A stretch of DNA of 48,558 bases from a virus. A model generated the notes under the pieces. It was not told the DNA's origin. It saw only the letters and a program-made list of their open reading frames with translations, and did no database searches. Position 1 is the first letter of the stretch; each line of letters starts with the position of its first letter. Both the position numbers and the translations under genes were made by a program. The stretch is taken from IMG/VR virus record IMGVR_UViG_3300048928_000075, positions 1 through 48,558 of that record; one strand, 5' to 3'. Below are positions 2,772-36,891 of this stretch, piece after piece.

Positions 2772-2777
2772 CGAAAC

Positions 2778-2808
2778 TGGGCAGCCTTCGGGCTGCCCTT
2801 AACCTTTG
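2778..2808 (+). terminator. Rho-independent terminator
   Basis: GGGCAGCC and GGCTGCCC pair around a short TTCG-like loop and are followed by TTAACCTTT. It lies just after the stop of the 2352-2771 gene and ends the rightward early unit. The T-tract is imperfect. Confidence 0.65.
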
Positions 2809-2816
2809 GAGCTGAC

Positions 2817-17848: not shown

Positions 17849-20338
17849 TTAAGGTTCCATTTCAACTAGGAGCGATACGCCCCGGATCGTTGCCGGGAAC
17901 ATGCTGCTCCCTTCAATAACAAAAACGCCCTCGTTTTTCCAGCCATCATCGGCGGGTATCGTGAGCTTCTTTGTGCGGATAGGTTCCGGCAGGTCAGGAT
18001 CATGCTCGACGTCTTCCTCGGCGCGCAGCAGATCGACGGCATTCAGGCCGCCTGCATTGATGCGGGCACTCTCGAATGTGTCGACCGTGATGCTGACAAT
18101 GCGCAGGTTGCGCGACAGGCCGCCGCCGTCCTGACTGATCTGTGCGGTAGGCAGTGGCAGGCTCTTGATGCGCCATGGCAGGCGCAGGCCCACGACGATG
18201 CGGCTGGCGCTGATGCCCTGTGGCAGCGTCAAGCGCCCGGCGTTCGAGACGCTGGCGTTGCCGATGTCGCGACCGTCAGCCCAGACGCCTACCTCCTGCC
18301 CGGTCAGGGCGGCGAGGTTTGCGAGGTTGGCCGTCGCTGCGCCCTCGTAGGTGTAGCTGCATGTCGAGTAGATCGGCAGGGCGTTAGGGTGCGTCCGCTT
18401 GTTGTAGAATGGAGCCATCTTCTCCACATGGCGGTACACCTGTCCCTGACGTTCGCGCCTGACGATGAGCCACAACTCCGGGTACTCTTTGCCCGGCAGG
18501 ACACAGATGTCCTCTACAAACCCGCCCACGTCGACGAGAGTGCCGCCTGCGATCTTCTGCTCGCGGTCGTAGGCGAAGAACACGATCTTGCCGTCGTCGC
18601 GCAGCGACACGACAAAGCGGTACGGGCTGTCGATAAACTCGGTCCGGTTGATGCCGTACTCGAACAGGTGGTCGTTCAGGACCGACACCTCGCGAGCGAG
18701 GTAGCCGTCCGCCTCGTAGCTGTAGCCCATCTCGTACAGGCGGCGGCGCAGGCTGTCCATGAACAGGTACACGCTCTCGACGTGAACCGGCTGCACGGCG
18801 GACGCGGCAACGCCGGTCTCCAGCTTCTGGCGGACGTTGTCATGCTTCAGGACGGCTGACGTGTCGCGACCGCCGATGGAGCGGAGGCCGCCCCCGGTGC
18901 CGCCCATCAACGCCCCGGCATCAGCCAGCCAGTGGATCGCGTCGAGCCGTCCGCCTGTCAGGCGCAGCTTGATACTGTCGTCGTCGACCAGCGGGTCGCT
19001 GGTGCGGAAATTGTCATAGGCTGCGCTGACGGACATCGCAACGCCGATAGGGTCGTCAGGCCAGCTCGCCAGAACGAAGCGGTCCTCGTAGAACACGCCG
19101 GTCGACGGCCAGCCCACGCCATCAGACCAAGCGCCCAGCGCCCAGTCTTGGATCGGGTCTGTCGTGAGCAGCGCGTGGCCGTTCATTTTTGTCTCGACTT
19201 GGTGAGTACCGTTGACAGCAACGATCTCGCCCCAGCGCCAGCGGCCATCGCTGCCGCGCATGCGGAGATAGCGACCAACATCAGAGTTACGGAAGCCGAC
19301 ACCACCATTGATGCCAGTGGTCGCGGACGCCTGCACAATACCAGCAGGGTGATTATCAGCAGCCCGGTGCATATACCAGCCGCCCATTTCAGTTGTTGCG
19401 TGATCTGGGTCTGAACCAGAGCCGCCAGAGAACAACAGGCGGTAGCTGCTGAACGCGTTCTTGTTGTTCGTTTCGTAGTAGCGCGTCTCACTGCCCGCCC
19501 AGCCTTTCTCGTTGTCGCGACTATCCAGCGTGATCCACACGGAACCGCCGTTCGAGCCTTGCAAATCCCACTGCGAGAACATGGCGTCGGTCTCGGCGTT
19601 CTTGCTGCCGGAGATGATGAAATAGTTGTCCATGACCACAGGTGTCGACAAGTCGATCTGCACCCAGCCAGCGGCGTTGCCGACTGTGGCAATCGTTGCC
19701 TTGTTGCGGGAGAACACCCGCCACGCGTCAGTGCCGACGCTGCTGGACGCCACGGCTGTGGTCTGGTCAGGGAACGGACCGACGAAGGTATTGTTGCTCG
19801 TCATGGCCGGAACGACGTTGCCGGTGTGCGTTGGCGTCAGCGTGGTCGGCGTATCGTTGATCGGCAGGTACGGGCCGTCCTTCGGCTTGTAGGGTGTGAT
19901 CGTCCAGTTGGTCTCGCCCATGCGGCGCAGCACCTGCGGACGCTTGCCCTTGCAGAACAGGTACATCGCGTCGCCAGACTGGCGGCCATGGAGTGTCGGC
20001 AGATCGGCCTCGGTGTAGATTGTCGCCACCTCGTAAGGAGCGCCGCCGTCAAACACCTGTCCGTCAGGCGTCCAGAAGCGGACATAGTTCTGGCCGAACT
20101 CCAGATTGTAGACCTGCGTCTGGGAGAACTGGAAGGCCAGAAACTTGGCCTTGCCGAGCTGGAGCTTAGTGTTGCCATAGAACGTCGTGCCCGGCACACG
20201 AGTGTGCGGGCCGTACCGGGTGATCACGGTATTCAGGCACTCGGCGTAACCCTGCTGGTAGAACTCGGTGTCCATGCGAGCGTGCATGAACGGGGTGATT
20301 TCGCCGCGTGTGCCGTTGACGTTCAGGACATGTACCAT
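17849..20338 (-). CDS. Tail tubular protein B (nozzle) with inserted discoidin-like domain
   Basis: The protein is 829 aa. The N-terminus (NGTRGEITPFMHARMDT...GYAECLNTVITRYG) is the usual podovirus nozzle start, as in T7 gp12 (about 794 aa). Residues about 195-326 look like an F5/8 type C (discoidin) jelly roll: WVQIDLSTP (225-233), a core strand with NYFIISGS, WDLQGSNGGSVWITLD (257-272), YETNN...SSYRLLF, TEMGGW. That fold often binds sugars. The rest is beta-propeller-like. It is coupled to tail tubular protein A upstream and the core proteins downstream, and the fibres should attach to it. Confidence 0.85.
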   Translation of the reverse strand: MVHVLNVNGTRGEITPFMHARMDTEFYQQGYAECLNTVITRYGPHTRVPGTTFYGNTKLQLGKAKFLAFQFSQTQVYNLEFGQNYVRFWTPDGQVFDGGAPYEVATIYTEADLPTLHGRQSGDAMYLFCKGKRPQVLRRMGETNWTITPYKPKDGPYLPINDTPTTLTPTHTGNVVPAMTSNNTFVGPFPDQTTAVASSSVGTDAWRVFSRNKATIATVGNAAGWVQIDLSTPVVMDNYFIISGSKNAETDAMFSQWDLQGSNGGSVWITLDSRDNEKGWAGSETRYYETNNKNAFSSYRLLFSGGSGSDPDHATTEMGGWYMHRAADNHPAGIVQASATTGINGGVGFRNSDVGRYLRMRGSDGRWRWGEIVAVNGTHQVETKMNGHALLTTDPIQDWALGAWSDGVGWPSTGVFYEDRFVLASWPDDPIGVAMSVSAAYDNFRTSDPLVDDDSIKLRLTGGRLDAIHWLADAGALMGGTGGGLRSIGGRDTSAVLKHDNVRQKLETGVAASAVQPVHVESVYLFMDSLRRRLYEMGYSYEADGYLAREVSVLNDHLFEYGINRTEFIDSPYRFVVSLRDDGKIVFFAYDREQKIAGGTLVDVGGFVEDICVLPGKEYPELWLIVRRERQGQVYRHVEKMAPFYNKRTHPNALPIYSTCSYTYEGAATANLANLAALTGQEVGVWADGRDIGNASVSNAGRLTLPQGISASRIVVGLRLPWRIKSLPLPTAQISQDGGGLSRNLRIVSITVDTFESARINAGGLNAVDLLRAEEDVEHDPDLPEPIRTKKLTIPADDGWKNEGVFVIEGSSMFPATIRGVSLLVEMEP

Positions 20339-21965: not shown

Positions 21966-22022
21966 GTCCTCTCGGTTGGTTGGTACTCAAAACCACAGGT
22001 CTCTAAAGAACTGTAGAAATTG

Positions 22023-22071
22023 GATAAGATAACACTATCACATATTCAATCTGTTATAGTGTTATCTTATC
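22023..22071. repeat. 16-bp perfect inverted repeat (hairpin) in region A
   Basis: GATAAGATAACACTAT at 22023-22038 is the exact complement of 22056-22071, with a 17-base loop. The corresponding place in region B keeps the loop (CATATTCAATCTGTT) but only 12 of 16 stem positions. The stem is AT-rich and has no T-tract, so it does not look like a terminator. It may be a protein site or an extruding cruciform. Confidence 0.8.
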
Positions 22072-22189
22072 TAACTCCATATATATTTTAAAATCTATGA
22101 GTACCAGAGTACCAACTTAGACTAAACCTTTGAAATCCTTAATCTAAAGCTGGTCCCAGAGCTGGTACTCATGGTACTCAACTTTGTCA

Positions 22190-22215
22190 GCCGGGCAGTT
22201 TTTACGCTGCCCGGC
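22190..22215 (-). terminator. G+C-rich hairpin, possible terminator
   Basis: GCCGGGCAG and CTGCCCGGC form a 9-bp stem with an 8-base loop, just after the stop of gene 22227-22928. There is no T-run on the minus strand after it, so it may act as a weak terminator or as an mRNA 3'-end stabiliser. Confidence 0.45.
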
Positions 22216-22226
22216 TGGTACTCAAC

Positions 22227-22928
22227 TTACTGCGGGCTGTGGCCCGCGATCTGGTGAGCAGAACCAAGGCGTACAACCTTGACAGTCTTGGCACCAGCGG
22301 TGGCCGCCACGATGCCGACAGACAGGGACAGCAGAGCAGCGACGCCGCCCTGTGCGACGCCCTGTGCGTCGTAGGTCACATCGGCACCGCCGATGCGGTA
22401 GCCGCCCAAGAAGAACGCCAGCTTGCCAGCGCCGTCGTGGTAGATCTCAAGATCGACACCGCCGAACTTGTCACGAGCCTGTGCCAGCGAGCCTTGTGGA
22501 AGCTGGCCGGTCACTGCGTTCGCGCCACCGAGCTTGAAGGCGTAGGAGCCGTCAGCGTTGATGACAATGAACGCGCCAGTGTTGGACGCGAACGGCGTTG
22601 CACCGATAGGGCACAAGCCGAACTGGATATTGATGCCGGTGAAGTTCGCATGCTCGAAGCGTGCGACTGCCGACACCTTTTTGTTCTTGGCGAACGGAAT
22701 GTTGGCAATGCCAGTGCCCGCGCTCTCAATCGCGCGCTGCGCGTTCGAGCTGTCGTTCGCAACTGCGGACGTTACAAGGTTGTAACCGCCGCCTGTAGCG
22801 TAAGCGTTGGCCGGAGTGCCGGTGCCGCCAGAGGTCAGTTTGTTCGCCGTGTTGGCGATGAAGTTCAGCTCGTCGGTGATGAATGCCGAGTGGGCACGGA
22901 ACCGATCAAACTTGCGATACGTAGCCAT
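22227..22928 (-). CDS. Hypothetical head-region protein (possible decoration protein)
   Basis: The protein is 233 aa, beginning with a helical segment (about 5-32), then long Gly/Ala/Val-rich beta sequence that resembles a lectin-like or jelly-roll sandwich (VSAVARFEHANFTGINIQFG, GAFIVINADGSYAFKLGG, VDLEIYHDG). It has no motif I can name. It is the next gene after the major capsid protein, separated by a strong terminator and a 132-bp gap, and is followed by region A. That isolation suggests its own promoter. A capsid decoration or fibre-like head protein is likely from position. Confidence 0.6.
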   Translation of the reverse strand: MATYRKFDRFRAHSAFITDELNFIANTANKLTSGGTGTPANAYATGGGYNLVTSAVANDSSNAQRAIESAGTGIANIPFAKNKKVSAVARFEHANFTGINIQFGLCPIGATPFASNTGAFIVINADGSYAFKLGGANAVTGQLPQGSLAQARDKFGGVDLEIYHDGAGKLAFFLGGYRIGGADVTYDAQGVAQGGVAALLSLSVGIVAATAGAKTVKVVRLGSAHQIAGHSPQ

Positions 22929-23011
22929 GGTATTTTGCCTTTCTGCGCCATGTTAGCGCGCTGCTTCTACGTGCGGTTAAGCATGTTTCTTATAGCATGC
23001 CTCTACCCTAA

Positions 23012-23038
23012 GAAAAAGGCCGGGCTTTCGCCCGGCCC
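23012..23038 (-). terminator. Rho-independent terminator after the major capsid gene
   Basis: GGCCGGGC and GCCCGGCC pair perfectly (8 bp) with a 4-base loop, followed on the minus strand by TTTTT. It lies 23 bp after the capsid stop and should end or attenuate the packaging/head transcript. Confidence 0.85.
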
Positions 23039-23060
23039 TTTGTGGCTCTCGCCCCCGGCC

Positions 23061-24059
23061 TTAGCCGTTGGTGATGAGCAGTGCCATCGGGATCTGCTTG
23101 CGCTCTGGGTAAACGCGGTCCCAGTTCGCGGCAAGCGCCAGCTCGGCGTTGGTTGGGAACTCGCCCGCAACCACGGCATCGGTCCACTTGATGCCGTAAG
23201 GGTGCAAGGCGAACTGGCGGCGTGTCCACAGCTCCTCGACGCCCATGCCGTCACCAGCCGACGCATCGGACTTGGTTTCGACTGGCTTGGCGACGTCGTG
23301 TTCTGCCCAGCCGAACACGTCGGAACCGAACAGGTAGTTGTGGTAGCGCACCTGCCCGGCAATCAGGATCGCTGGCACGTTGTCAGAGACGTGCACGCGG
23401 TAGCCCTGATAGTAAGGCACCCATGGTTTGCCTTCACTGTCTGGGCGGAAGTCGATCAGATCGTTCTTAGCCAGACGAGTGTTGACGACAGAGTGCATGA
23501 CAAGCAGCTTCAGTTCCTGCTTGGCATCGCCCATGGTCTGGGCTGCGTCCATCACTGCCTCGGCAGAGATCAGGTTCGCAGCAGTTGGTGCACCGCCAGT
23601 CGAGATGTCGACAACCATGTCGCCACCGTCGTTCTGGATATTGTCAGCGAACACGCCGCGTGCCGTGGCAATCGCGATGCGGTCGAACTGACGGCCCCAG
23701 TATTCGCCGACGCGAGACTGGATGCGAGCCATCGGGTCAGCGCCCGCCAGCTCCGAAGTGAGCATGGAGGTCGTCCAGCCCTTGGTGCGCACCTGACGCA
23801 GCGCCACGTCCTTGCCTGTGGTGATAGGCGAGGCAGAAGCGTGACTGTCTGGATCATCCGAAGCGGTGTCACTTTCGGTGTCGTCCAGATCGCGCCAGAA
23901 TGGAACGTTGAACGTGCGACCACCGCCTGCGAGCTTGCTCGCGAGGTCGGCGTCCGGGCGAAGCACGCCCGAATTGTAGAATGCCATCGTCTGCTTGGTG
24001 TTGTTCACCATGTAGCTGTTAAAGACTTCAGGCACAATTACGTCTGAAATACGGGTCAT
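23061..24059 (-). CDS. Major capsid protein
   Basis: The protein is 332 aa. The start ISDVIVPEVFNSYMVNNT, an SGVL segment, and an HK97-like pattern of helix plus beta domains match the podovirus/siphovirus coat family; C-terminal strands such as YGIKWT and TNAELALAANWDRVY are typical of coat proteins. It lies between the scaffold and a terminator, the usual place. It forms the icosahedral shell. Confidence 0.85.
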   Translation of the reverse strand: MTRISDVIVPEVFNSYMVNNTKQTMAFYNSGVLRPDADLASKLAGGGRTFNVPFWRDLDDTESDTASDDPDSHASASPITTGKDVALRQVRTKGWTTSMLTSELAGADPMARIQSRVGEYWGRQFDRIAIATARGVFADNIQNDGGDMVVDISTGGAPTAANLISAEAVMDAAQTMGDAKQELKLLVMHSVVNTRLAKNDLIDFRPDSEGKPWVPYYQGYRVHVSDNVPAILIAGQVRYHNYLFGSDVFGWAEHDVAKPVETKSDASAGDGMGVEELWTRRQFALHPYGIKWTDAVVAGEFPTNAELALAANWDRVYPERKQIPMALLITNG

Positions 24060-24096
24060 TTGGTCAGGTCTCCGCTGTGGTTAAAATCTTGGCCTG

Positions 24097-25020
24097 TCAG
24101 GACAGGCCAAAATCGCTTGGTTTCTTTCCGGCAGCGGAGATGAATGACAGAGCCAGATCGCGGTCGTCTTTGATCAACTTCATCTGGGCCGTTACGTTGA
24201 AGCCGTCACCGGCTGCGAACGGGTTGTCCAGACGGTCAGGTCGACCGCGCAAGATTTGGTCTTCTGTGTAAAGCGCCCGGCCAGCGGCGGCGAACATCTT
24301 GGCGATGGCGGCGGATTGGATAATCTTGCCCTCGTCACCAATAAGCCCGACGCGTTTGAACTCGGCAATCGCCTCGTCTCCGCCAACATCTCGCAGGAAC
24401 TTGTCAGCCTGCGCGAGATTGGTTCGCATCTGTTCGCCGTCCAGAGGCCCCCACTCTTTAACGAGCTTCGAGGTCTCATCCTTGGCGATAGCCAACTGCT
24501 GTTCGGCACGCTTGCCACCCAAGCCTTTGAAGTCCTCGACGGTCTCGGTGGCGAACCAGTCATGAAGACCTTTCGCCTGCTCTGCCGTCAGCCCCAGCTT
24601 GTGAGAGACATCGCGAAACCGGTTCGCGCGCTCGCCATCATAGGGCAGATCTTCGGGCAAATCCTTGGGAGGCTCGAACGCATAGTCCTTCGCTTCCGCT
24701 GGTCGCCCCAGCTTGTTAAGGAACGCATCACGCTCCTCTTGGGTGGCGTCTTTACCCGGAATACGGATAGAGTTGCCTAGCAGCTTTGACTGCTCATGCG
24801 CCGACTTCGCCAGCTCTTTCGGGCCTTTGAAACCGGTCTTGGTGATCCATTCGCGGATATCCTTGTCCTCGTCAGAGAAACCAAGGGCCTCAAATGGGTC
24901 GGCAGATTTTCCATCTGGGTTGTCAGCGTTGTTGGCTGCGGCTGCTGCTGCGGCTGCTGCCGCTGCGTCATCTGCGTTGCCCTGCTGGCCCTGCTGGTCG
25001 TCTACGTTTTCAGTTCCCAT
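24097..25020 (-). CDS. Scaffolding protein
   Basis: The protein is 307 aa. An acidic, Ala/Asn/Gln-rich, disordered N-terminus with a run of Ala (about 19-29) is followed by helical charged sequence with phage-scaffold features such as LGRPAEAKDYAFEPP (about 104-118), and a basic-helical C-terminus. It lies directly upstream of the capsid gene, with 37 bp between. It should direct procapsid assembly and then leave the head. It overlaps the previous gene by 11 bp. Confidence 0.8.
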   Translation of the reverse strand: MGTENVDDQQGQQGNADDAAAAAAAAAAANNADNPDGKSADPFEALGFSDEDKDIREWITKTGFKGPKELAKSAHEQSKLLGNSIRIPGKDATQEERDAFLNKLGRPAEAKDYAFEPPKDLPEDLPYDGERANRFRDVSHKLGLTAEQAKGLHDWFATETVEDFKGLGGKRAEQQLAIAKDETSKLVKEWGPLDGEQMRTNLAQADKFLRDVGGDEAIAEFKRVGLIGDEGKIIQSAAIAKMFAAAGRALYTEDQILRGRPDRLDNPFAAGDGFNVTAQMKLIKDDRDLALSFISAAGKKPSDFGLS

Positions 25021-25372
25021 GACTGCGCTCTCTTTCTTCTAGTCTTTGAAGCTCGTCGAGCGCGTCACGACGTAGCTGTGTTATAGCTGAACTAGGAAGG
25101 TCTGCCAAGAATAAAATCCTAGCCATGACGCCTCGCCTTCCTTCCTGCCGTTGTAGCATATCCCCTGTCGCGTCGGGAGGGGCTACGCCGAAATAACCGG
25201 TCTCTAAAGCGAGGTCGGTCATCACGAGCTGGGCCTGCTCTTTCGATCCTTTTCCGTCGAGGATCGCGCGCCATGCAGCACCCAGTTCCACTTGCTCTTT
25301 CAGTTCCGTGACGTAGGTGCGAAGCGCCGGGTCGCGGTGTATCAGCTCTCTCACTGAATATTCTTCTGTCAT
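25010..25372 (-). CDS. Hypothetical protein between portal and scaffold
   Basis: The protein is 120 aa, helical and charged, with ELIHRDPALRTYVTELKEQVE at the N-terminus and a Glu/Arg-rich C-terminus. It has no recognised motif. The gene overlaps the portal stop by ATGA and the scaffold start by 11 bp, so all three are translated from one message. It is probably an assembly or minor head protein. Confidence 0.65.
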   Translation of the reverse strand: MTEEYSVRELIHRDPALRTYVTELKEQVELGAAWRAILDGKGSKEQAQLVMTDLALETGYFGVAPPDATGDMLQRQEGRRGVMARILFLADLPSSAITQLRRDALDELQRLEERERSHGN

Positions 25373-27153
25373 TGTGGCATGCTCTCTGCTGCTGCCGCTG
25401 GAAGACCAGACAGCATACCGGGCAGCGCCGGGCTGGCGTTAGCGACTTCGGCTCCCTGACCAAGAGCTGCGGCACCTTCGCCGATGCTCTTGGCTGCGTC
25501 ACCGCCCTGCTTCATTGCTTCCAGCGCCATCATGGCCTGCTGCGTCTGGTCGCCCTGCTGGCGGCCCTCGTCGGCAGTCTCACGAGACGTGAGGCTGGAG
25601 GCTGGAGCGCCCAAGATTTCCTGCGCGCGTTCCAGCATTTCGTCGTTGTCGAAGCGTGCCATGATCTGGCTCAAACGGTTCGGGTCGTTGCCGGACAGCA
25701 TCGTCGCGAACTCGACCAGACGCTGCATACCGATCAGCTCCGACATGCGGCGCAGGCGGTCGAGCGGGCTGGTGAAGGTAGGCGTGACCTCGCGGTCGCC
25801 CATGCTGTCAGGCATGGCGAGCGGGCTGCCGTCCTCGAACGCGCCCTTGCGGCCAAGGATCGCGATCTCGCGGTCCGTCATCATGGACAGGCCGTCGTTC
25901 AGGCTGATGCCGACAGGGCCAAGCAGCTCGCCCTTTTCCTGCGCCCGGATCAGTGCCTCGGTCGCCGTGTCGTTCTTGTCCTGAAGGATGATCTGCCACA
26001 GGTTCAGGTATAGCAGCTCGCGCACGCTGTTGCGCCGGGCTTCCATGATGCCCTGTGCGAAGTCAGGCCGCACGCCGCTGTTCATGGCCTCGAACAGCTT
26101 CTCGCCTCGACCGTTGATCAGGCCCGGATTGACCTGCCCCGGATTGAGGTTGAGCCGCTGGAAGTTCTTGCCGAACGTGGCGTAGGCCGGGCGGACTACC
26201 TGCTGCACAGCGATAAGCTCGTTGCGCGCCATCTCCTGAAGGCTGCGCAGCTCGCCGATGGCGTATGCCACTGGGCCTTCGCTGTACGGGCTGGTGCCGC
26301 TGTTGTTCCATGCGTAGCGGACAAACGGAAACTCGTTGAAGCCACCCTCGCCAAGGAGGTGCTGCTCGTCCGGCATGATGTAGAAGGATGCGAAGTCAGC
26401 ACCGCGCACGCCGATCTTGCCCAGCTTGTCATTCTCGCTACGAGGGCGGACGGCATGCAGGATGCGGAATGTCTTGTGCTTGTCCTTGGGGTTCTTCAGC
26501 GCCATCTTGACGCTGTCAGGCAGCTTGTCCTCGCCGTACTCGTTCAGCATCTGGATCGCCGACAGGCGGAACAGGCGGAACATGCGGTCCGGGCGGCCAG
26601 TCGCATCTACGCCGGGGTACAGTTCGATGAGCGGCATGTACTGATAGGAGTATGGCAGCTTGGCGCTCACGCCCTGCATCTCCTTGATGAAAAGCCAGCC
26701 GTCGCCGAACGCGCACATGGACCGGATCGCCGACTTGTGCGCAGGCCAGAAGCCGGTCTTAGGATCGTTGCGGCGCTTGAACATGTAGTCGCGCAGCCGC
26801 TCCAGCGCCAGCTTTTCCTCGTGGGTGTTCGGCTCGCCGAACAGGCTGTCGGTGCCGAGGTCTTGCCAGTTCTGGCTCTCTGGCGTCTTCAGCGACAGGA
26901 TCCCAGCGGCCAGTCGTTCGATGGCCCAGAGGCTGGTCATGTCGTACAGGTCGGCAGACCGGCGCGACGCGGCTGGAGCGTCGACAACAGAGTTGATCGC
27001 GCCGCCCCAGTTGGTGCCCAGCATCATGTCGTAGTTGGCGGTCTGTGGCAGGACGTAGCGGGCCACGGTCCGCCAGTAGGCTTCCCATGGGCGGCGAGCG
27101 TCTGACAGTCCTTTCCACTCGTCGAGCAGTGCGGTGACGAGACGTTCGCTCAT
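25369..27153 (-). CDS. Portal protein (T7-type head-tail connector)
   Basis: The protein is 594 aa. The N-terminal WKGLSDARRPWEAYWRTVARYVLP and the later segments DLYDMTSLWAIERLAAGI and MARNELIAVQQVVRPAYA match podovirus head-to-tail connectors. The last 80 residues are Gln/Gly/Ala-rich and flexible. It forms the dodecameric ring for DNA entry and exit. T7 gp8 is 536 aa, so this is slightly long. It is coupled to the following gene through ATGA. Confidence 0.88.
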   Translation of the reverse strand: MSERLVTALLDEWKGLSDARRPWEAYWRTVARYVLPQTANYDMMLGTNWGGAINSVVDAPAASRRSADLYDMTSLWAIERLAAGILSLKTPESQNWQDLGTDSLFGEPNTHEEKLALERLRDYMFKRRNDPKTGFWPAHKSAIRSMCAFGDGWLFIKEMQGVSAKLPYSYQYMPLIELYPGVDATGRPDRMFRLFRLSAIQMLNEYGEDKLPDSVKMALKNPKDKHKTFRILHAVRPRSENDKLGKIGVRGADFASFYIMPDEQHLLGEGGFNEFPFVRYAWNNSGTSPYSEGPVAYAIGELRSLQEMARNELIAVQQVVRPAYATFGKNFQRLNLNPGQVNPGLINGRGEKLFEAMNSGVRPDFAQGIMEARRNSVRELLYLNLWQIILQDKNDTATEALIRAQEKGELLGPVGISLNDGLSMMTDREIAILGRKGAFEDGSPLAMPDSMGDREVTPTFTSPLDRLRRMSELIGMQRLVEFATMLSGNDPNRLSQIMARFDNDEMLERAQEILGAPASSLTSRETADEGRQQGDQTQQAMMALEAMKQGGDAAKSIGEGAAALGQGAEVANASPALPGMLSGLPAAAAESMPQ

Positions 27154-27156
27154 GGT

Positions 27157-27375
27157 TTAGGCTCCTAGCGATGCAACGGCCTGATTGGCTGGACGCTGGA
27201 CATTGGAGTTGTAGGTCGGATCGCCCAGCACGCTCGTGAATACGTTGCCGTAAACACCCTGCTGCTGGCGGACGCGGCGGCGCTCCTGACCTGCTGCCTC
27301 GGCCACCTCGTCACGAGATGGCGCAGGCTGCACGACAGGTGCCTTCACCGGCTTTGGCTTTGAACCGAAGCACAT
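27157..27375 (-). CDS. Small hypothetical protein
   Basis: The protein is 72 aa from ATG 27375; a longer frame upstream overlaps the membrane-protein gene and is unlikely. A Cys-Phe-Gly start with Lys/Pro-rich sequence is followed by an Arg/Gln helix and a C-terminal YGNVFTSVLGD...NSNVQRPAN segment. Such short proteins beginning MCFG/MSFG are common just before podovirus portal genes; no function is known to me. It ends 4 bp before the portal start. Confidence 0.6.
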   Translation of the reverse strand: MCFGSKPKPVKAPVVQPAPSRDEVAEAAGQERRRVRQQQGVYGNVFTSVLGDPTYNSNVQRPANQAVASLGA

Positions 27376-27379
27376 GGCA

Positions 27380-27664
27380 TTAGCTCCCGAAGACGAAGGC
27401 CAGCAACGAGGCTGCCCAGAGGATGAAGATGGCGACAGCACCGTATGCGGCGACCATCTCATCCTGCTCCACCCAGTCGTCAGGCAGGCCGAACAGATAG
27501 TCTTGATACAGGTAGGTCGCGGCGGCGGTGATTGAAAAGCCGATGACTGCGAGCTTCACCTCGAAGAAGATCGAAGCAATGCCGGGCAGGAGGATGGCAA
27601 GCGCGCCATAGACGATGACGGCTAAACCTTCAACTGGTTTGAGGTCTTTCTGATGACTGGACAT
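27380..27664 (-). CDS. Small membrane protein with about three helices (possible holin)
   Basis: The protein is 94 aa, with hydrophobic segments at about 13-33 (LAVIVYGALAILLPGIA), 35-52 and 73-93 (AYGAVAIFILWAASLLAFVF), and short charged loops. Size and topology would suit a class I holin, but it lies in the packaging module, far from the endolysin. It overlaps the acetyltransferase-like gene by 35 bp. Alternatives are a membrane-remodelling or exclusion protein. Confidence 0.6.
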   Translation of the reverse strand: MSSHQKDLKPVEGLAVIVYGALAILLPGIASIFFEVKLAVIGFSITAAATYLYQDYLFGLPDDWVEQDEMVAAYGAVAIFILWAASLLAFVFGS

Positions 27665-28172
27665 GGCTCACCTTGTAGCGTGTGGCCGCCACGCCAAGTG
27701 CGTCGCGGTCCCAGCGAAAGAGCTGGAATTTTTCTCCATTCTTTCCATACACGAAAGGCGTCCCATTCGCAACGGCACCGGTCGATTTAAGCCAGCGGTG
27801 AGCCTCGTGGTGATCGACGTGCGACCGGCACTCCATGGACAGGAAACCGGCGTCGATTGCTGCCGGTCCGTACTCGGTGATCATGTGCCGGGTGACTGCA
27901 TGGATCACGCGGCGGGTCTGGTTGGTGCCCATGGCCCACGCGTCTAGCGTGCATATGTTCAGCGGATGCGCGCCAAAGAAGCATACCGGTGTGTCGTCGA
28001 GGTAGGCGATGAAGGCGTCACCAGCCCCCAGCATCAGCGCTGCTACCTCGTAGGTCTTGAAGCCGTCCGGTAGCTGGCAGAAGATCTCGCGCTGGTCAGC
28101 CTCGCGAAGGTTGGCGGTGATGAAGCTGGCGTGTGCCAGTCTTGCGGGCTTGACGCTTACCCTGTCGTTCAA
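27630..28172 (-). CDS. GNAT-like / T7 gp13-type protein
   Basis: The protein is 180 aa if started at the TTG at 28172, which has GGGAG 7 bases upstream; an ATG at 28238 would add 22 low-complexity residues. Residues around YEVAALMLGAGDAFIAYLDDTPVCFFGAHPL and the following helix-strand pattern resemble the degenerate GNAT fold of podovirus gp13-like internal/assembly proteins. Canonical acetyl-CoA loop residues (Q/R-x-x-G-x-G/A) are not evident, so catalysis is doubtful. It lies after TerL and the zinc-ribbon gene and before the portal. Confidence 0.6.
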   Translation of the reverse strand: MNDRVSVKPARLAHASFITANLREADQREIFCQLPDGFKTYEVAALMLGAGDAFIAYLDDTPVCFFGAHPLNICTLDAWAMGTNQTRRVIHAVTRHMITEYGPAAIDAGFLSMECRSHVDHHEAHRWLKSTGAVANGTPFVYGKNGEKFQLFRWDRDALGVAATRYKVSHVQSSERPQTS

Positions 28173-28293
28173 TGTATCGCTCCCAGAAGTCTTGTCGGCA
28201 CCGGATGCAGGCGAACACACCCGGCTCGCCTGTCGCATTCATCCTGTATAGCGTGTCTCGCTGCTTCAGGCAAAGGTGGCAGCGCACTACCAT
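28096..28293 (-). CDS. Small zinc-ribbon protein
   Basis: The protein is 65 aa from ATG 28293, overlapping the TerL stop by 7 bp. Two CxxC knuckles (C-H-L-C at 5-8, C-I-R-C at about 28-31) are 19 residues apart, followed by a basic tail rich in Arg, Lys and Gln. This should bind zinc and possibly nucleic acid. Its 3' end overlaps the next gene by 77 bp if the TTG start there is right. Confidence 0.6.
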   Translation of the reverse strand: MVVRCHLCLKQRDTLYRMNATGEPGVFACIRCRQDFWERYIERQGKRQARKTGTRQLHHRQPSRG

Positions 28294-29996
28294 TCGCCTC
28301 GTGGATCGTAGTCTTCGTTGCTGGCCGTGCGAGGGTTCTTGCGCTCCTCGTCCGGGCGGCGGTTGAGCTTGGTCACGATGTCCGGGCGACGCTGCGTCTG
28401 TTCCAGTATCGCTTGATCGCGGTACTGCCACGCGCCACACACAGCGTCAGCCTCGTCGGTCGAGCTGCCCAGCCGCTTGCGAATGTCGTCCTTCTCCTCG
28501 ACCAGCAGCTCGCCCTTGCGGATTTTGAAGTGTGGCGCTGTGAGCTGGGTGCGCAGCCGGGCACCGGGCGGCAGTGCGATCTGGTACTCGCTCTTAGGGT
28601 CAAGCGCCAGCCGCATCTCCCACCACATTTTTGCACGCAGGTTCGCATAGCGGTACATCGGCATGTCAGGCGGGCACGAGCCGTCACTCTCGCTGACGGT
28701 GTGCATCTCGCACAAGATGTTATAGCGCTCGCGCATCGTGGCCTCGGTCGAGCCAGCCCAGCCACCGGTCGCATCCAAGGCGATCAGGCTCTGATCCATG
28801 CGTTCTTCGAGCAGCAGCGCAGCCAGCTCGCGACCGGTCGGCGTGGCGCTGCCCGGCTGGGTGATAAGCTCGTCGAAGAAGTCCTCTGTCATGAGAGGTG
28901 CAAGGCAGGTCGTATCAGCACCGCCCTGTGCGACGTCGCCATAGAGGACGAGCTGCTTCAGGCGCAGGATCACGTCCATTGGCTTGGCCTTCCAGCGCTC
29001 TTGCGCTGCCAGCACCCACGTGGTCGGGATGATCTGGAATGGGTGATCCTCGCCGCGAACTGTGAAGTCGCCGTTCAGCAGCATCGACTTCAGCGGCTCT
29101 GGCGTCGAGGACAGACGCTCGGCATAGCCGGTGCCCTTCAGGAACGCATTGTCCTTGAGCAGCGACTTGATGAAGGTGCGCGACCGGGCAGCAGCGACGC
29201 GGCCAGTCTCACGGTCCTCGTCGCTTGGATCAGGACGCGGCTCACCTGTCTGTGGATCGTACCAGCCCGGCCCCTCCACCCAGATCGTTGCCAGCCGGTC
29301 GCCCTCGGACTTCATGATGCACCAGCGCAGCTCGCCGGGCACTGCCGGGTTCGGGTACATCTCGTCGAGCCATGGAGCGAACCAGCGCATGAGCCAGTCG
29401 CCCAGCCCTGTGTCGACGTACTTGCCGTCCTTGATCTCTGGCACTGGCGGGTTCGTTGCGAACATGACGCGCTTGCGCTGGCCCTCGACCGTGGATCGCA
29501 GCCAGCGGATGACGAACTCGACCTTCAGCTCGTCGAGCTGGGCTGCCTCGTCGAAGCCGATGAAGTCATGTGGTCGGCCCATCCAGTTACGCTCACTGCC
29601 CGGATCAGACAGGTGTCCGCATTCGATGAAGCGCTTGTCAGGCGTGAGCATCTTCTTCTTGTTGTCGTCCTTGCTGATCGGGTTGCTGATCACCTCACGC
29701 AGTCGGTCCCAGAAGCCACCAAGGTCGACCGACTGGGCACGGAAGATGAGCGAGCGCAGGTGCGCTGTCGTTGCCAGACCGATCAGCAGGTCAGACTTGC
29801 CACCGCCAGCAGCGCCACCATAGAGCAGTTCGTCAGCCTCGGAGTAGAAGGCGTCGGCCTGCGGTCCGGGCTGCGGCGTCCATGGCTTGTCGAGGCTGGC
29901 ACGTGCCGTTGCCGCGAGCTGCTGCCTCGCTTCAGGTGACAGCGTCTTGATGAGCGCTGTCAGGCTGTCGAGGGTGATGTCCTTGGGCAGGCTCAT
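28287..29996 (-). CDS. Terminase large subunit
   Basis: The protein is 569 aa. The Walker A motif is GGAAGGGKS (60-68), the Walker B motif FIGFDEA with D150-E151, and nuclease-type acidic residues include LYGDVAQGGADTT (about 348-360). It packages DNA into the procapsid by ATP hydrolysis and cuts concatemers. It follows TerS and two small genes. Large terminases in this size range are common in headful and pac phages; the circular permutation suggested by assembly would suit headful packaging. Confidence 0.9.
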   Translation of the reverse strand: MSLPKDITLDSLTALIKTLSPEARQQLAATARASLDKPWTPQPGPQADAFYSEADELLYGGAAGGGKSDLLIGLATTAHLRSLIFRAQSVDLGGFWDRLREVISNPISKDDNKKKMLTPDKRFIECGHLSDPGSERNWMGRPHDFIGFDEAAQLDELKVEFVIRWLRSTVEGQRKRVMFATNPPVPEIKDGKYVDTGLGDWLMRWFAPWLDEMYPNPAVPGELRWCIMKSEGDRLATIWVEGPGWYDPQTGEPRPDPSDEDRETGRVAAARSRTFIKSLLKDNAFLKGTGYAERLSSTPEPLKSMLLNGDFTVRGEDHPFQIIPTTWVLAAQERWKAKPMDVILRLKQLVLYGDVAQGGADTTCLAPLMTEDFFDELITQPGSATPTGRELAALLLEERMDQSLIALDATGGWAGSTEATMRERYNILCEMHTVSESDGSCPPDMPMYRYANLRAKMWWEMRLALDPKSEYQIALPPGARLRTQLTAPHFKIRKGELLVEEKDDIRKRLGSSTDEADAVCGAWQYRDQAILEQTQRRPDIVTKLNRRPDEERKNPRTASNEDYDPRGEW

Positions 29997-29997
29997 G

Positions 29998-30084
29998 TTA
30001 GCGCACCATGAATGGAATGACGATCCAGCCGATCACGAGGAGCGGCACGGCCATCTCGGTAAGGATGATGCCAATCGTTCTCAT
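29998..30084 (-). CDS. 28-residue single-span membrane peptide
   Basis: The ATG at 30084 overlaps the preceding stop as ATGA, and the frame closes with TAA at 29998, 1 bp before the TerL start. The product is almost wholly hydrophobic after a short MRTIG start (IILTEMAVPLLVIGW, then IVIPFMVR), enough for one membrane helix. Tight coupling on both sides and the clear hydrophobic profile argue that it is real. Function unknown. Confidence 0.55.
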   Translation of the reverse strand: MRTIGIILTEMAVPLLVIGWIVIPFMVR

Positions 30085-30398
30085 TGCACGATCCTCGCAA
30101 TGTGATGCTGCTCGACGATCATCTCGACCGGCACGAGGCTGTAGTCCAGCGTGCGCGGCCCCGGCAGCACCTCCATCACAGTGACGAAGGTCGACACAGC
30201 GCCGATGTCGTTGTCGACCATCATGGCGAAGGGGCTGGCACGGAAGCCGAACAGCCGCTCTTGCAGCTCCCAGTATTGCTTACACTTTGCTTGCCATTCT
30301 GGATCGTCGACGGCCACGCCGGGCTGCAACGTCCTCCACGTCTTCAGACGCAGCGTGCCCGGCACCAGCGGGTTCTTGGCTTCTCGGTACAGTGTCAT
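30081..30398 (-). CDS. Hypothetical protein
   Basis: The protein is 105 aa with GAGGA 7 bases before its ATG. It has a mixed alpha/beta character, with a Trp/Tyr-rich segment near residues 39-50 and a beta-rich C-terminal half ending VPVEMIVEQHH. It has no recognised family. Its first 119 bases overlap the end of the TerS gene in another frame, which is unusually long for this compact genome; the TerS tail may be the poorly constrained partner. Confidence 0.6.
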   Translation of the reverse strand: MTLYREAKNPLVPGTLRLKTWRTLQPGVAVDDPEWQAKCKQYWELQERLFGFRASPFAMMVDNDIGAVSTFVTVMEVLPGPRTLDYSLVPVEMIVEQHHIARIVQ

Positions 30399-31149
30399 GC
30401 TCTTGTCCTCTCATTAGCTGGTCGATGGCTTCAATGTCCATGCCTTCCAGTTCTTCGTCAGTGTACTCGGCCATGGTCTTCTCGTCCACAACCTCGCCAT
30501 CAATCGTCGCATTAACCTTACTGCGGGCAGCCTGCTCCAGCACGTCAAGCACGGCCATGGCAAGCAGGCGTGGATCGCTGGCCTTGTCTTCGATGTCGAT
30601 CTTGCCGTCGATGTTGGCCTGCACGTCGATCTTGTCTTTCCACAGGTGAGGCATGCGGTTCTTCAGCCAGAAGGTAGCAGCACCCACGTCAGGCGGAATG
30701 TGCTTGATCACCTCTGCCCGCACGACGCTGCCGTCAGCGTTCAGCTTCACTTCCTCGCTGCGGAAGCTGTAGCCCAGCGCTCTATGATAGAGGGCACGCT
30801 CAACGCGCTCGTCGGCGAGCTGTCGGTTCATGCGGATGCACAGCGCGAACTCTGGATCCTTCGCCATCCACTCGCAGAAGGTATGCTCGCTCACGCCGAA
30901 ATACTGGGCGGCCTCGAAATTGGTCATGGCGGCACGTGCACAGGCTTGGCCCATGCGCAGCATCTCGACGCGCTCCTCGCCACGCAGGTCAGAGTAGCGG
31001 TAACGCTTGCTCTGTGTGGCCTCCATGACGGCTGGTGACAGGTTCTCTGCCAGTTGTGAAGGGTCGAGCTGACCGCGCTTCCTGCGGCGGGTCTTGGCCC
31101 TGTCCATGTAGGCGTGATTGCTGGATTGTATTGGCTTGTTCCGGCCCAT
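30280..31149 (-). CDS. Putative terminase small subunit
   Basis: The protein is 289 aa from ATG 31149, which has GAGAG 6 bases upstream; a longer frame to 31251 runs into the control region. Residues about 80-125 hold a helix-turn-helix-like segment (EAAQYFGVSEHTFCEWMAKDPEFALCI) typical of phage small terminases, followed by coiled-coil oligomerisation sequence and GAATFWLKNRMPHLWKDK, a common TerS motif. It recognises the phage genome for packaging and loads TerL. It is the first gene of the packaging/head transcript. The last 40 residues are basic and overlap the next gene. Confidence 0.8.
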   Translation of the reverse strand: MGRNKPIQSSNHAYMDRAKTRRRKRGQLDPSQLAENLSPAVMEATQSKRYRYSDLRGEERVEMLRMGQACARAAMTNFEAAQYFGVSEHTFCEWMAKDPEFALCIRMNRQLADERVERALYHRALGYSFRSEEVKLNADGSVVRAEVIKHIPPDVGAATFWLKNRMPHLWKDKIDVQANIDGKIDIEDKASDPRLLAMAVLDVLEQAARSKVNATIDGEVVDEKTMAEYTDEELEGMDIEAIDQLMRGQEHDTVPRSQEPAGAGHAASEDVEDVAARRGRRRSRMASKV

Positions 31150-31249
31150 TTTGGCTCTCTCGCGCGACGCTGATCTCTCACTGCCCGTTGTACCATGCAC
31201 CATGCCCATCGTCCACCTACCAAGCCCGTACCACAATACCGGTATCAGC

Positions 31250-31301
31250 ATTTCACTGAAGTGAAATAGAGCGGCTAAATTGAAAGTGTGATATGATTAT
31301 A
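31250..31301. promoter_or_regulatory. Divergent control region between TerS and the 31360 gene
   Basis: A 7-bp inverted repeat ATTTCAC/GTGAAAT (31250-31256 and 31261-31267, 4-base spacer) lies upstream of TerS. On the minus strand TATAAT occurs at 31301-31296, a good -10 for TerS transcription, but I see no good -35 at the right distance. On the plus strand a TTGAAA is present near 31280 without a well-placed -10. The palindrome would fall in the early leader of the TerS transcript and could be an operator for late-gene control. Confidence 0.45.
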
Positions 31302-31359
31302 TGCGTACACAAAAGCGACGCGCTGAAGCATCGCATCACCAACTTGAGAGATAACGCCA

Positions 31360-31680
31360 ATGCCTAGACCGTACAAATACCCAGAGCTGTTTGAGCTGAA
31401 CATGGGCGAAAGCCTGTTCATTCCCAGAGACGAAGTCGCCTGCATTCAGACGCTGCGCAACGTCGTCACCCGCATCAACAAGAAGCACGGCCTCGGCCTG
31501 TCGGTGCATGACAACATCGCAGATGACGAGGTCGAGGTGAGCAGGCCCCACCCATCGGAGCGCTCAACAGCTCCGTCGAAACGTGAGGTCAGAGAGAGTG
31601 CATCGCGACGTGTCATGACGCGCGAGGAAATGCGACAGAAGATCGCAGAGATACAGGCGCAGCTTGACGCTGAAGACTGA
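31360..31680 (+). CDS. Small conserved-type phage protein, isolated plus-strand gene
   Basis: The protein is 106 aa, starting 9 bases after GAGAG. Residues 1-62 have the pattern Y-x-E-L-F-x-L-N-M-G-E-S-L-F-I-P...LR..V...NKKHGL, ending in a strand with VEVSR. This resembles short phage/plasmid proteins of unknown role that have a GESFFVP-like strand and a basic helix. The C-terminal 45 residues are charged and helical. It is the only plus-strand gene between 3 and 48 kb, with its own upstream control region and a perfect terminator, so it is regulated apart from its neighbours. A regulator is plausible, not shown. Confidence 0.65.
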   Translation: MPRPYKYPELFELNMGESLFIPRDEVACIQTLRNVVTRINKKHGLGLSVHDNIADDEVEVSRPHPSERSTAPSKREVRESASRRVMTREEMRQKIAEIQAQLDAED

Positions 31681-31685
31681 ACATC

Positions 31686-31714
31686 AAAAGGCCGGGCTTA
31701 TCGCCCGGCCTTTT
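31686..31714. terminator. Strong bidirectional terminator
   Basis: A 12-bp perfect stem (AAAAGGCCGGGC with GCCCGGCCTTTT) and a 5-base loop, flanked by A and T runs, can terminate on either strand. It lies 5 bp after the 31360-31680 stop and should also stop leftward-strand transcripts that pass region B. Confidence 0.9.
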
Positions 31715-31983
31715 AGTTGGTACTCAAAACACGGTCTCCCCTAAGAAACTGTAGAAATTAGATAAGCTACCACTATAACATATTCAATCTGTTATTATGT
31801 TATCTTATCTCTATTTGTATATATTTTAGTATTTAATGAGTACCATGAGTACCAGAGGGTAGAACTATATGATTTAGAAAGAAAAAACTGGTACTCAAGG
31901 CATTTTTTCGCTTGAGTACCATGTGAGTACCGTGAGTACCAGATTGTATAAATTCTGGTACTCAATTTACGAGCTGGTACTCA
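31715..31983. repeat. AT-rich non-coding region B with dense TGAGTACC octamer array
   Basis: This is the longest gene-free stretch, between the convergent 31360 gene and the primase-helicase gene. Exact copies of TGAGTACC or its complement start at 31719, 31837, 31846, 31890, 31913, 31924, 31933, 31957 and 31976. Four neighbours are 9 or 11 bp apart, and the pair 31890/31913 forms a hairpin (9-bp arms, 13-base loop). The last copy supplies the TGA stop codon of the primase-helicase gene. The part 31718-31853 matches region A. It is a candidate origin, operator or partition-like site. Confidence 0.85.
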
Positions 31984-34410
31984 ACTCTCTGTGGCGTTCC
32001 CAGTGTGCTTTTTGAACAGCCCGCCCAGCACATTCGTATTACCTGAACCGTCGACGGCACCATTCTTCGACGCCTCCAGACGAAGCTCCTCGGATGACAG
32101 CTCGGTCCAGTATGCAGCCAGCTTCTTGCCGTTTGCATACAGCGGGAACCGCCCCTGCTCGAAGCGTGTGTGCCAGTTGACGCCGTCTCGAACGCCGACA
32201 CGCGTCAGGATTTTGCGTGCCACTTTCTTCATGATCGGCCCCAGCGGACGAGGCAACAGCAGCGTGCCATCATCGTCTGCCACCATGCGAACGTACTTTT
32301 CGAGCTGCTGGATGCTGAACACTTCGCCGGGCATATTCTCCAGCGCCAGCTCAATTGCGCTGTCCAGATCGCTCTTGGCTTCTTCGATCATCACAGCCTT
32401 GGCCTCGAATGTTGGCGGCTTGGCGTATGGCGAGTAGTCCGCAATGTCGTACTCGGCCATCCAGTGATAGAAGGCCGCGACGTTGTCAGGGTCGTCCATC
32501 CACGTGTTAAGCGATTGCCAGTAGGACACAGGCTTTGGCTCGCCATTGGTGACGATACCGAACCGGCGATCATGCTGCGGGATAGGCAGCGCGTCCTCGT
32601 GATTGGTGAAGATCATGAACGTGGTTGACGACAGCGCCCGGTAGTTGCCATCGGTCTTGACCTTGATCTCGCGCATGGTCTGGCGAGGCTCGACCTGCTC
32701 CTTCAGGAACTCATAAGTGTTCGCCTTGGTTTGGTATGCGCTGCCGTTCTCGGTCTCGGAGCTTTCGTTAACACAGACCATCAGCGCGTCGGCCTGCCAC
32801 TCGTTGTACTGCGACTGGTAGGTCTTGCCGGTGAAGTCCTTGAACGACAGTTGGCGCACATAATGACCGCCGAACAGGCGGCTCATCAGCTCGGCCAGCG
32901 TGCCGCGACCGGTGCCGAATGTAGCGTGCGCAACCATGACCACGGCTGGCCCCGGTATGTGAGGGTATCGCAGCTTGAAGGCCAGCCATTGCAGGAACCA
33001 GTGGCGCTCCTCGGCATCAGGCACGAGATGCGTCATGAACGCCACGCCGGGTCGTGGATCTCCCACGCCTTCCTTATGGTATGGCGGCGAGTAGACGTTC
33101 TGATACAGCTTGCCTTCCTCTGTGTAGAGCGGGCGAGGCTGGTCTGGGCGCATGCGCAGCCCCTCAACCGTGATGCGCTGCTCGTCGCTCATCCACAGGT
33201 CGACCGGGTTGATCTTCTTCTCGCCGCCGCGCGGCCCTTTTTCGACCATGCAGTTCGGCAGATACGTGAGCCTGAAGGGCGTCATCTGGTAGCCTTCAGC
33301 GGTCGACGTCGCCCAGAGCGGCGTCACGCAGAGCTTGCGCGATGGGCAGTATGTGAAGCCGTCCAGCATCTTGGCCGCCGCTGTCAGGCATTCGTCTGCC
33401 GTCTTGATCTTCTTTTTGCGGCGGTCGTCCAGCTCTTGCAGCTTCTCGGCAATGCGGTTGATCTCCGGCCCGTAGCTGATGGGCTGGTCGGCCAGCTCCA
33501 TATGCGTCACGCCTTCCATGCTTTCCCAGATCGCCACGTTACCGGAGCGAGCGAGCGAGACGAGGCAGCGCGTGCGGTTGATAGCTGTCGGGCCTTCCAG
33601 CCACGATGCAGAGCAGCGCAGACCTTCCTCGGCCTTGGCAGCCTCACGCAGCTCGTCGAGTGTGCGCGTCACGTCGTCATTGCAATGGAACAGCATCTCC
33701 GGCACGAGGTCGTAGACGCGGCCAGCGGCACTCTCGCCCTTGCTCGACTTCTCGAAGATCGTCCAGCCCAGAGCCTCCAGCGTGCGCTCGGCGATGTCGA
33801 TCACGTCCCAGAGAACGGCCTTCGGCACCTCGACCAGCTCGTCGAGCTTGAAGGTATAAGGGCTGGCCTCAATCTCGAAACCGCCATCTTCAATCGTGGC
33901 CCACTGGTACTCGACCAGCGTCTCGCCTGTCTTCTCATCCAGCGTGTGCGCGCCGAACGCGCCGAACTGACGCGGCGAGCTGCCACCAAAGATCTCGACG
34001 CGGTGTGTGCCGTCGTCAGCGACCTCGCCGGGCTTGATGTAGGCGCGAGTGTGGAGCCGTGTGAACAGCTCCTCGCAGCGCAGGAACCACGCCTCCTTGA
34101 AGCCGCTACCCCAGCGCAGCAGCACATTGTCCTGTCCCAGCTCTGGGTGCGCAGCGATGACGGCCTTCGAGATCGCGATCATCGCGTCCTCGTCGTTCAC
34201 GTCGAAGTCGATGACGCACAGGCCATTCTCGACGCGCAGGCCGGTTGCCTTGTGCCGGGAATGCTTGCGCGTCCAGCTCTTGACCTCGTCCTCGGTGATC
34301 TCGACAGTCGGCCAAGCTGGCATGAATGTCCGCTTGTCCATATTCCTGATTGGGGAATACCCGTTCTCCAGCACCCGCAAGCGCAGGGCTTCAATGTCTT
34401 GCTTGTCCAT
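31981..34410 (-). CDS. Primase-polymerase / superfamily 3-type helicase
   Basis: The protein is 809 aa. The N-terminal domain (about 15-160) fits the archaeo-eukaryotic Prim-Pol fold: ATGLRVENGLCVIDFD with D68/D70 as metal ligands and VEIFGGSSPRQFGAFGAH (138-155). The C-terminal half has a DUF5906/SF3-like ATPase: Walker A position FGTGRGT near residue 500, where Arg replaces the usual Lys, and ADALMVCVNES near 540 as Walker B-like strand, then a sensor-type FMIFTNHEDALPIP. It should prime and unwind DNA at the phage origin. It is the last gene of the replication block and ends inside the octamer array, which fits an origin nearby. Confidence 0.82.
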   Translation of the reverse strand: MDKQDIEALRLRVLENGYSPIRNMDKRTFMPAWPTVEITEDEVKSWTRKHSRHKATGLRVENGLCVIDFDVNDEDAMIAISKAVIAAHPELGQDNVLLRWGSGFKEAWFLRCEELFTRLHTRAYIKPGEVADDGTHRVEIFGGSSPRQFGAFGAHTLDEKTGETLVEYQWATIEDGGFEIEASPYTFKLDELVEVPKAVLWDVIDIAERTLEALGWTIFEKSSKGESAAGRVYDLVPEMLFHCNDDVTRTLDELREAAKAEEGLRCSASWLEGPTAINRTRCLVSLARSGNVAIWESMEGVTHMELADQPISYGPEINRIAEKLQELDDRRKKKIKTADECLTAAAKMLDGFTYCPSRKLCVTPLWATSTAEGYQMTPFRLTYLPNCMVEKGPRGGEKKINPVDLWMSDEQRITVEGLRMRPDQPRPLYTEEGKLYQNVYSPPYHKEGVGDPRPGVAFMTHLVPDAEERHWFLQWLAFKLRYPHIPGPAVVMVAHATFGTGRGTLAELMSRLFGGHYVRQLSFKDFTGKTYQSQYNEWQADALMVCVNESSETENGSAYQTKANTYEFLKEQVEPRQTMREIKVKTDGNYRALSSTTFMIFTNHEDALPIPQHDRRFGIVTNGEPKPVSYWQSLNTWMDDPDNVAAFYHWMAEYDIADYSPYAKPPTFEAKAVMIEEAKSDLDSAIELALENMPGEVFSIQQLEKYVRMVADDDGTLLLPRPLGPIMKKVARKILTRVGVRDGVNWHTRFEQGRFPLYANGKKLAAYWTELSSEELRLEASKNGAVDGSGNTNVLGGLFKKHTGNATES

Positions 34411-36141: not shown

Positions 36142-36891
36142 TCAGTCGTACCTAAACTCGACGTCGCAAACCACCTTGCGCTGCGCCGACGTCAGATCAT
36201 CCCACCACTTCTCGCGCTGGAACCACGCTTCGAGGTGTTCATGCTGCGAACGGTGATAAGGCGTCAAGCCTTCGCACACTTGAAACAGCATATATTCGGT
36301 GTTGATGTTGATGGCCTCGACCGGCGTGTCCGGGCGGGTCGCCACGATCTCCTCATATGTCGCGGCGGCTTCCAGCTCGCTACGCGGCACGAGCATTTCC
36401 ACAGGATGGCCGTCTTGATCCTTCAGCTCTGTGGCAACCGGCACCATATCGTGGCTGCGGTCATGCTCCAGCGCTACGCTGTCAGGCGTTGCGTAAGGGT
36501 CTGGGTAGGTACGCCCGGCAACGATGTCGAGCTTGGCCTCAAGCAGCGACAGCAGCTTGTCAGACTGGCCGCCGTTGCGACGGTAGCCGTCGATGGCAAG
36601 CAGGATGATGTCGGCCCACTCGACCAGATCAGACGGTCTGGCCTTGGCCTCGTCAGCCTCCTTCTTGATATGGTCGACGACACCGGACGTGCGCTCCTGC
36701 CGGTCGCCGAACTGGCGAGACTGAATGCGAAAGGCGCGCTCTACTGTGTCGTCGAAGTCGCGGGAGAAGGCCCCGGCCTGCACAGCTTCGAGATGATCGG
36801 CGGCCTCGCGCATCAGTGAACGAGGATCGCGGAGCAAGCTGAAGGCAACTTGGTTGCGCAGCGCTTGGACGAGTTCAGGTAAGCTCTTCAT
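36142..36891 (-). CDS. MazG-like dNTP pyrophosphohydrolase (DUF550 type)
   Basis: The protein is 249 aa. Residues 60-132 match the DUF550 / dATP-dGTP diphosphohydrolase N-terminal domain: FGDRQERTSGVVDHIKKEADE (61-81), EWADIILLAIDGYRR (91-105), and AGRTYPDP. The KKE-x2-E and E-W-x-D acidic residues would bind Mg2+ as in MazG. It probably hydrolyses dNTPs or alarmone-type nucleotides to tune pools. No PurZ or DatZ gene is present, so this does not indicate a 2-aminoadenine genome. The C-terminal 110 residues are unassigned. It overlaps the polymerase gene by 17 bp. Confidence 0.78.
   Translation of the reverse strand: MKSLPELVQALRNQVAFSLLRDPRSLMREAADHLEAVQAGAFSRDFDDTVERAFRIQSRQFGDRQERTSGVVDHIKKEADEAKARPSDLVEWADIILLAIDGYRRNGGQSDKLLSLLEAKLDIVAGRTYPDPYATPDSVALEHDRSHDMVPVATELKDQDGHPVEMLVPRSELEAAATYEEIVATRPDTPVEAININTEYMLFQVCEGLTPYHRSQHEHLEAWFQREKWWDDLTSAQRKVVCDVEFRYD

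Follow-up and report, generated by a model that had tools for sequence, protein, structure and literature searches.

P4 encodes a single protein, alpha, that combines primase, helicase and origin-binding functions. Two separate iteron sites, ori and crr, are required in cis, one of them beside the alpha gene, and P4 is thought to bridge the two. The origins of phage-inducible chromosomal islands (PICIs) lie immediately 3' of the initiator gene and always comprise two iteron sets around an AT-rich region, an organisation considered by its describers to be unique to PICIs (PMC6092414). Similarly, the Rep protein of Staphylococcus aureus pathogenicity islands (SaPIs) binds iterons directly downstream of its own gene through its C-terminal domain, as does Cch2, a helicase of the staphylococcal cassette chromosome mec (SCCmec) (PMC7581432). 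The replicase of pRN1 joins an archaeo-eukaryotic primase (AEP), a superfamily 3 (SF3) helicase and a winged helix, with an essential stem-loop 3' of its gene; its authors proposed the same arrangement for a phage replicase and noted that the primase of P4 alpha is of the bacterial Toprim type (PMC4234260). Here, we describe two arrays of the octamer TGAGTACC, termed A and B, in the whole of IMG/VR record IMGVR_UViG_3300048928_000075 (48,558 bp; hereafter the window). Array B adjoins the 3' end of the phage's replicase gene and is very probably a replication origin of the SaPI/PICI/P4 type, predicted to be bound by the C-terminus of the replicase.

Octamer Arrays and the Replicase Gene

The window represents a podovirus whose head and tail genes are T7-like; its GC content is about 60%, and most of its genes are carried on the minus strand. 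No DNA-level relative was found among cultured phages, and a literature search for the octamer itself returned nothing relevant. Exact copies of TGAGTACC number 15 on the two strands of the window (5 in array A, 9 in array B and 1 in the nozzle gene), against a mean of 0.74 and a maximum of 3 in dinucleotide shuffles. The enrichment reported in the initial annotation is therefore real, with 14 of the 15 copies in the arrays, and chance suffices for the extra copy that it had listed in the nozzle gene. The arrays lie 9.5 kb apart and, as had been claimed, share a core: about 130 bp recur in direct orientation, in the order outer iteron, AT-rich dyad, iteron pair. The features on which the argument rests are as follows.

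31719..31983, unstranded: array B, nine exact TGAGTACC copies; proposed primary origin
31837, 31846, 31913, 31924 and 31933, plus strand: iterons of array B
31719, 31890, 31957 and 31976, minus strand: iterons of array B
31755..31836, unstranded: AT-rich core of array B (lowest-GC 90-bp segment, 21% GC); proposed unwinding element
31686..31714, plus strand: terminator-like hairpin at the outer edge of array B, 3' of the open reading frame (ORF) 31360-31680
31981..34410, minus strand: replicase gene (809 aa); proposed iteron-binding initiator
32128..32370, minus strand: stretch encoding the C-terminal winged helix (residues 681-761), within the fastest-evolving domain
19203..19210, plus strand: isolated octamer in the nozzle gene, explained by chance

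Array B overlaps the end of the replicase gene: on the minus strand, the first three letters of the iteron at 31976-31983 are TGA, the stop codon of this gene. Of the nine iterons, eight are on the gene's side of the AT-rich core and a single one is on its far side, where most relatives have more. The core itself contains an imperfect dyad (31760-31784 / 31786-31810). Thus, array B resembles the origins of SaPIs and PICIs in lying directly 3' of the initiator gene, in having two iteron sets around an AT-rich region, and in the nature of the initiator, a primase-helicase with a predicted C-terminal DNA-binding domain (Pfam DUF5906; fold matches to 7ola and 7pds). An iteron or origin role, one of several offered in the initial annotation, is well supported for array B: its place 3' of a primase-helicase gene, its two-sided layout and its AT-rich core recur in most relatives.

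In the proposed mechanism, TGAGTACC would be an iteron, that is, an initiator-binding box, and the initiator would be the phage's own replicase. Several replicase winged helices would bind the iterons of array B, with protomers assembling to the left and right of the AT-rich core. Once the helicase had melted this core and loaded onto the strands, the PrimPol domain would prime synthesis. Binding, melting and origin firing at array B are thus predictions of this model.

The Replicase Compared with Known Initiators

The replicase matches DUF5906 in Pfam, together with a sub-threshold Prim-Pol match. Its domains comprise a PrimPol at residues ~3-229, a D5/SF3-type helicase at ~338-680 and a C-terminal winged helix at 681-761, the last assigned by the succession of secondary-structure elements in an AlphaFold model (mean predicted local distance difference test score 84; 17 sequences). 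The best match to the helicase and C-terminus, in both sequence (E 5e-22) and structure (Z 23.9, residues 346-761), is the primase-polymerase of phage NrS-1 (6k9c). The model also matches PriRep1 with double-stranded DNA (Z 13.2), over residues 3-229 the pRN1 PrimPol (Z ~12) and over residues 330-754 the primase-helicase of SaPI5 (Z 16.8). Among replicases, mean pairwise identity falls to 0.23 for residues 695-809, compared with 0.42 for the helicase.

Like P4, the window phage has the same iterons at two sites, one of them beside the gene for a multifunctional replicase. However, the N-terminus of this replicase matches the AEP PrimPol of pRN1 instead of a Toprim primase. The primase-helicases of SaPIs and PICIs (PMC6092414, PMC7581432; 7ola, 7om0, 7pds) share with it the origin 3' of the gene and the C-terminal DNA-binding domain, both predicted here. 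In contrast to these islands, the window encodes a full podovirus with capsid, portal, TerL, TerS and tail proteins, has a second array, and uses an 8-bp, lineage-specific iteron. Cch2 differs in that its primase is separate and its AAGTG iterons number only three (PMC7581432). The likeness to ORF904 of pRN1 extends to the combination of AEP primase, SF3 helicase and winged helix (the last predicted here) and to a cis site that immediately follows the replicase gene (PMC4234260). Whereas the pRN1-type site is a large stem-loop without iterons, array B has iterons and a weak stem-loop (DNA fold z -2.3), and it is array A that holds a strong one (z -5.5).

A separate feature of the replicase concerns its Walker A motif (GTGRGT, residues 499-504), in which arginine replaces lysine in 16 of 17 homologues; only L076 retains the lysine.

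Private Iterons in Related Phages

Relatives were sought by a capsid-based scan, which gave 48 loci, and then with a replicase alignment, which gave 16 viral loci; the first replicase scan, with a single-sequence query, had found no relatives. Three records among the capsid-scan loci (G001, G003 and G004) encode the same replicase at 46-48% identity, and all three carry an array at the 3' end of its gene. Each array is arranged in both orientations around an AT-rich stretch and uses a different word: GGTGACA in 11 copies (G001), GTAGGTACG in 11 copies (G004) and GGGGGACG in 5 copies (G003). Further private iterons occupy the same place in G028 (GTGTAGTC) and G029 (TTGTTGCA), the replicases of these five records being 43-48% identical. 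More distant homologues have GTGTTGA, GTGTTGTG, CGGTGGCA and GAGGGCAG, and GTGTTGAG is another private iteron among the replicase-alignment loci.

For 10 of the 18 records, no bidirectional 7-mer cluster in the DNA examined was stronger than the one in the 1 kb at the 3' end of the replicase. The combined rank p was 1e-3 under the stricter filter, which also dropped the G-run iteron of G003, and 6e-5 with a shorter window and a looser filter. The initial annotation had listed a lack of conservation in relatives among the outcomes that would refute its reading. The word is indeed not kept; however, position and architecture are, so that this test would mislead. A scan with the AT-rich core sequence gave no match in the collection scanned, and the core is therefore not conserved as sequence in that collection.

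A stem-loop was considered as a shared feature of the arrays and rejected, because in most relatives the fold of the core is unremarkable (z about -1 to +1). The only exceptions are this phage (strong in array A, less so in array B), G031, G033 and G037.

Iteron similarity tracks the identity of the replicase C-terminal domain (r 0.58, Mantel p 0.0008), which counts in favour of the proposed mechanism. Several observations nonetheless weigh against array B as an origin of a widespread, replicase-linked type. Helicase identity predicts iteron similarity almost equally well (r 0.54; partial correlation 0.26), so that coevolution specific to the C-terminal domain is suggested and goes no further than that. 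The placement is not universal: the array lies 7 kb from the replicase gene in G030 and 870 bp away in G033; the arrays of G028, G035 and G038 are weak, and neither L115 nor L116 has a clear array. Finally, the GC skew of the window gives no clear origin signal, although it is uninformative here because the genes are mostly co-oriented.

Two of these loci merit separate mention. The distant array in G030 (L072, 15121-15429) consists of TGGGACA copies around an AT-rich core, with GTACCAGCC-type repeats adjoining it. The replicase homologue in L115 sits in a contig of a Rhizobiaceae metagenome-assembled genome, which points to alphaproteobacterial hosts, as does the host of L116.

Motif-Only Scan and Cultured Phages

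IMG/VR was also scanned for TGAGTACCNTGAGTACC without any gene information, which returned at least 120 stretches, most of them one-strand matches. Among the matches listed, the only real bidirectional noncoding array was that of L163, in which nine copies of GAGTACC surround an AT-rich core.

L163, 4294-4581: array ~100 bp 3' of gene 1108-4191 (RepB_primase and DUF5906)

Profile comparison of the L163 replicase with the replicase family revealed no C-terminal domain in common, nor any clear similarity to that of the window replicase. The iteron TGAGTACC therefore appears to be common to, and apparently read by, two only distantly related replicases. The clustered octamers of L239 belong to a coding collagen-like repeat and were discarded.

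Cultured phages carry comparable arrays. In Escherichia phage EcoM-683R1 (L248, 4230-4483), AGGTGAC occurs nine times in both orientations within 256 bp, directly 3' of a DUF5906-type gene. The cyanophages Mel-JY33 and Nsp-JY18 have 8-9 copies of ACCCGGG, and JS26 and phiAxp-2 have weaker arrays. Among the phages tested, Rostov 6, K300, KPP23, KsaM-C1, KLEP18-1 and phiM5 have no array directly 3' of the gene. The DUF5906-type gene beside the EcoM-683R1 array is annotated only as "hypothetical".

In all, more than a dozen records of tailed phages whose replicases are of the PrimPol-helicase kind show the layout, including at least one Escherichia phage, and it is therefore not a hallmark of satellites.

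Array A, a Second Origin-Like Site

21982..22224, unstranded: array A, five exact iterons (21982 minus, 22098 plus, 22164 minus, 22173 minus, 22217 minus)
22020..22074, unstranded: near-perfect palindrome in the AT-rich core of array A (27-nt arms, 89% complementary)
22188..22217, unstranded: GC-rich hairpin in array A, CAGCCGGGCAG / CTGCCCGGCTG; probably the terminator of the capsid operon

Array A consists of a direct-repeat copy of the left half of array B and a right half of its own, in which the iterons do not align to those of array B. In addition to its exact iterons, it holds a copy with one mismatch (AGAGTACC, 22106-22113). Its palindrome folds more strongly than the dyad of array B, and a second test gave z -6.3. 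The initial annotation placed the two arrays around a 9-kb block running from TerS to capsid. The block is there, but the flanking of the head module, to which that reading attached meaning, is probably incidental, since the place of array B is set by the replicase gene, whose 3' end it adjoins.

No relative has a second cluster of its own iteron, so that comparison lends array A no support. In L009, the nearest relative by capsid (76% identical), homologues of genes 22227 and 21408, which border array A here, lie ~70 bp apart with no array between them. These observations make an addition the best reading of array A.

Alternative Roles of the Arrays

Whether this addition functions is the closest question. 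Array A may be a non-functional relic, an origin piece that was copied in where capsid-side genes meet tail-side genes and is now decaying, while array B stays the origin. This is a real possibility, though we would not presume it: the lack of a second array in any relative, the near-adjacent flanking genes of L009 and the mismatched iteron all speak for it. Against it, five exact iterons are kept on both sides of the core, the palindrome folds at z -5.5 compared with -2.3 for array B, and the right half has iterons of its own that do not align to array B. A second origin, or a helper resembling P4 crr, is a little more likely than a relic. In its fullest form, this reading makes the phage a two-site replicator, as in P4, in which the replicase would bind arrays A and B and either bridge them or fire both. 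More widely, there would be a class of tailed phages with PICI-style origins, lineage-private iterons and a fast-evolving winged-helix reader, whose origins would not cross-react in co-infection. This combined proposal is tentative.

The remaining explanations concern both arrays. As operators switching late genes, they would be bound by the putative ribbon-helix-helix (RHH) protein 175-459 or by an autoregulating replicase. Both arrays are intergenic and array A lies upstream of the tail-gene block, as an operator might. However, array B sits at the replicase 3' end facing a convergent ORF and not upstream of a gene that it could control; no sigma-70-like promoter was found at array A, and array B has one only at the level of chance. 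Protein 175-459, for its part, has no Pfam match, resembles an unnamed PHROG only weakly, has no homologue found in the array-bearing relatives, and lies far from both arrays. Operators are therefore unlikely, and neither the RHH-bound array nor the late-gene switch of the initial annotation finds backing here. Recombination joints for head-module swapping, another role suggested there, would account for direct repeats around the TerS-to-capsid block; yet relatives with a single array share the gene order replicase, TerS, capsid, and the link to the replicase already explains the place of array B, which makes this role very unlikely. Short boxes in two orientations do resemble plasmid omega/parS-type arrays, but the ORFs scanned yielded no partition ATPase and the array position tracks the replicase gene across relatives, so that a centromere-like segregation site is extremely improbable.

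Other Observations in the Window

The family A DNA polymerase of the window is encoded in two ORFs on the minus strand, 36875-38008 and 44232-45461, about 6.2 kb apart, which match neighbouring stretches of a single profile (phrog_17, 671-989 and 994-1240). The relatives G003, G004 and G029 share this split; in L069, the two halves almost adjoin. A 2231-aa ORF (7930-14625, minus strand) is conserved in relatives, with 54% identity over part of its length, and probably encodes a large virion protein.

Probable Lineage-Private Origins in Free-Living Phages

PICIs, SaPIs, Cch2 and P4 already show the layout described here. The novelty lies in its occurrence across free-living phages that have private iterons, and in the second copy carried by the window phage. 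The private iterons offer naturally occurring protein-DNA pairs that could serve to decipher the winged-helix recognition code. Furthermore, origins of uncultured phages could be located by a simple rule, namely by seeking octamers clustered in both orientations about an AT-rich core, 3' of the replicase. The second array of the window phage makes a two-site origin directly testable. If the proposed reading is true, lineage-private iterons would keep the origins of co-infecting phages from cross-reacting.

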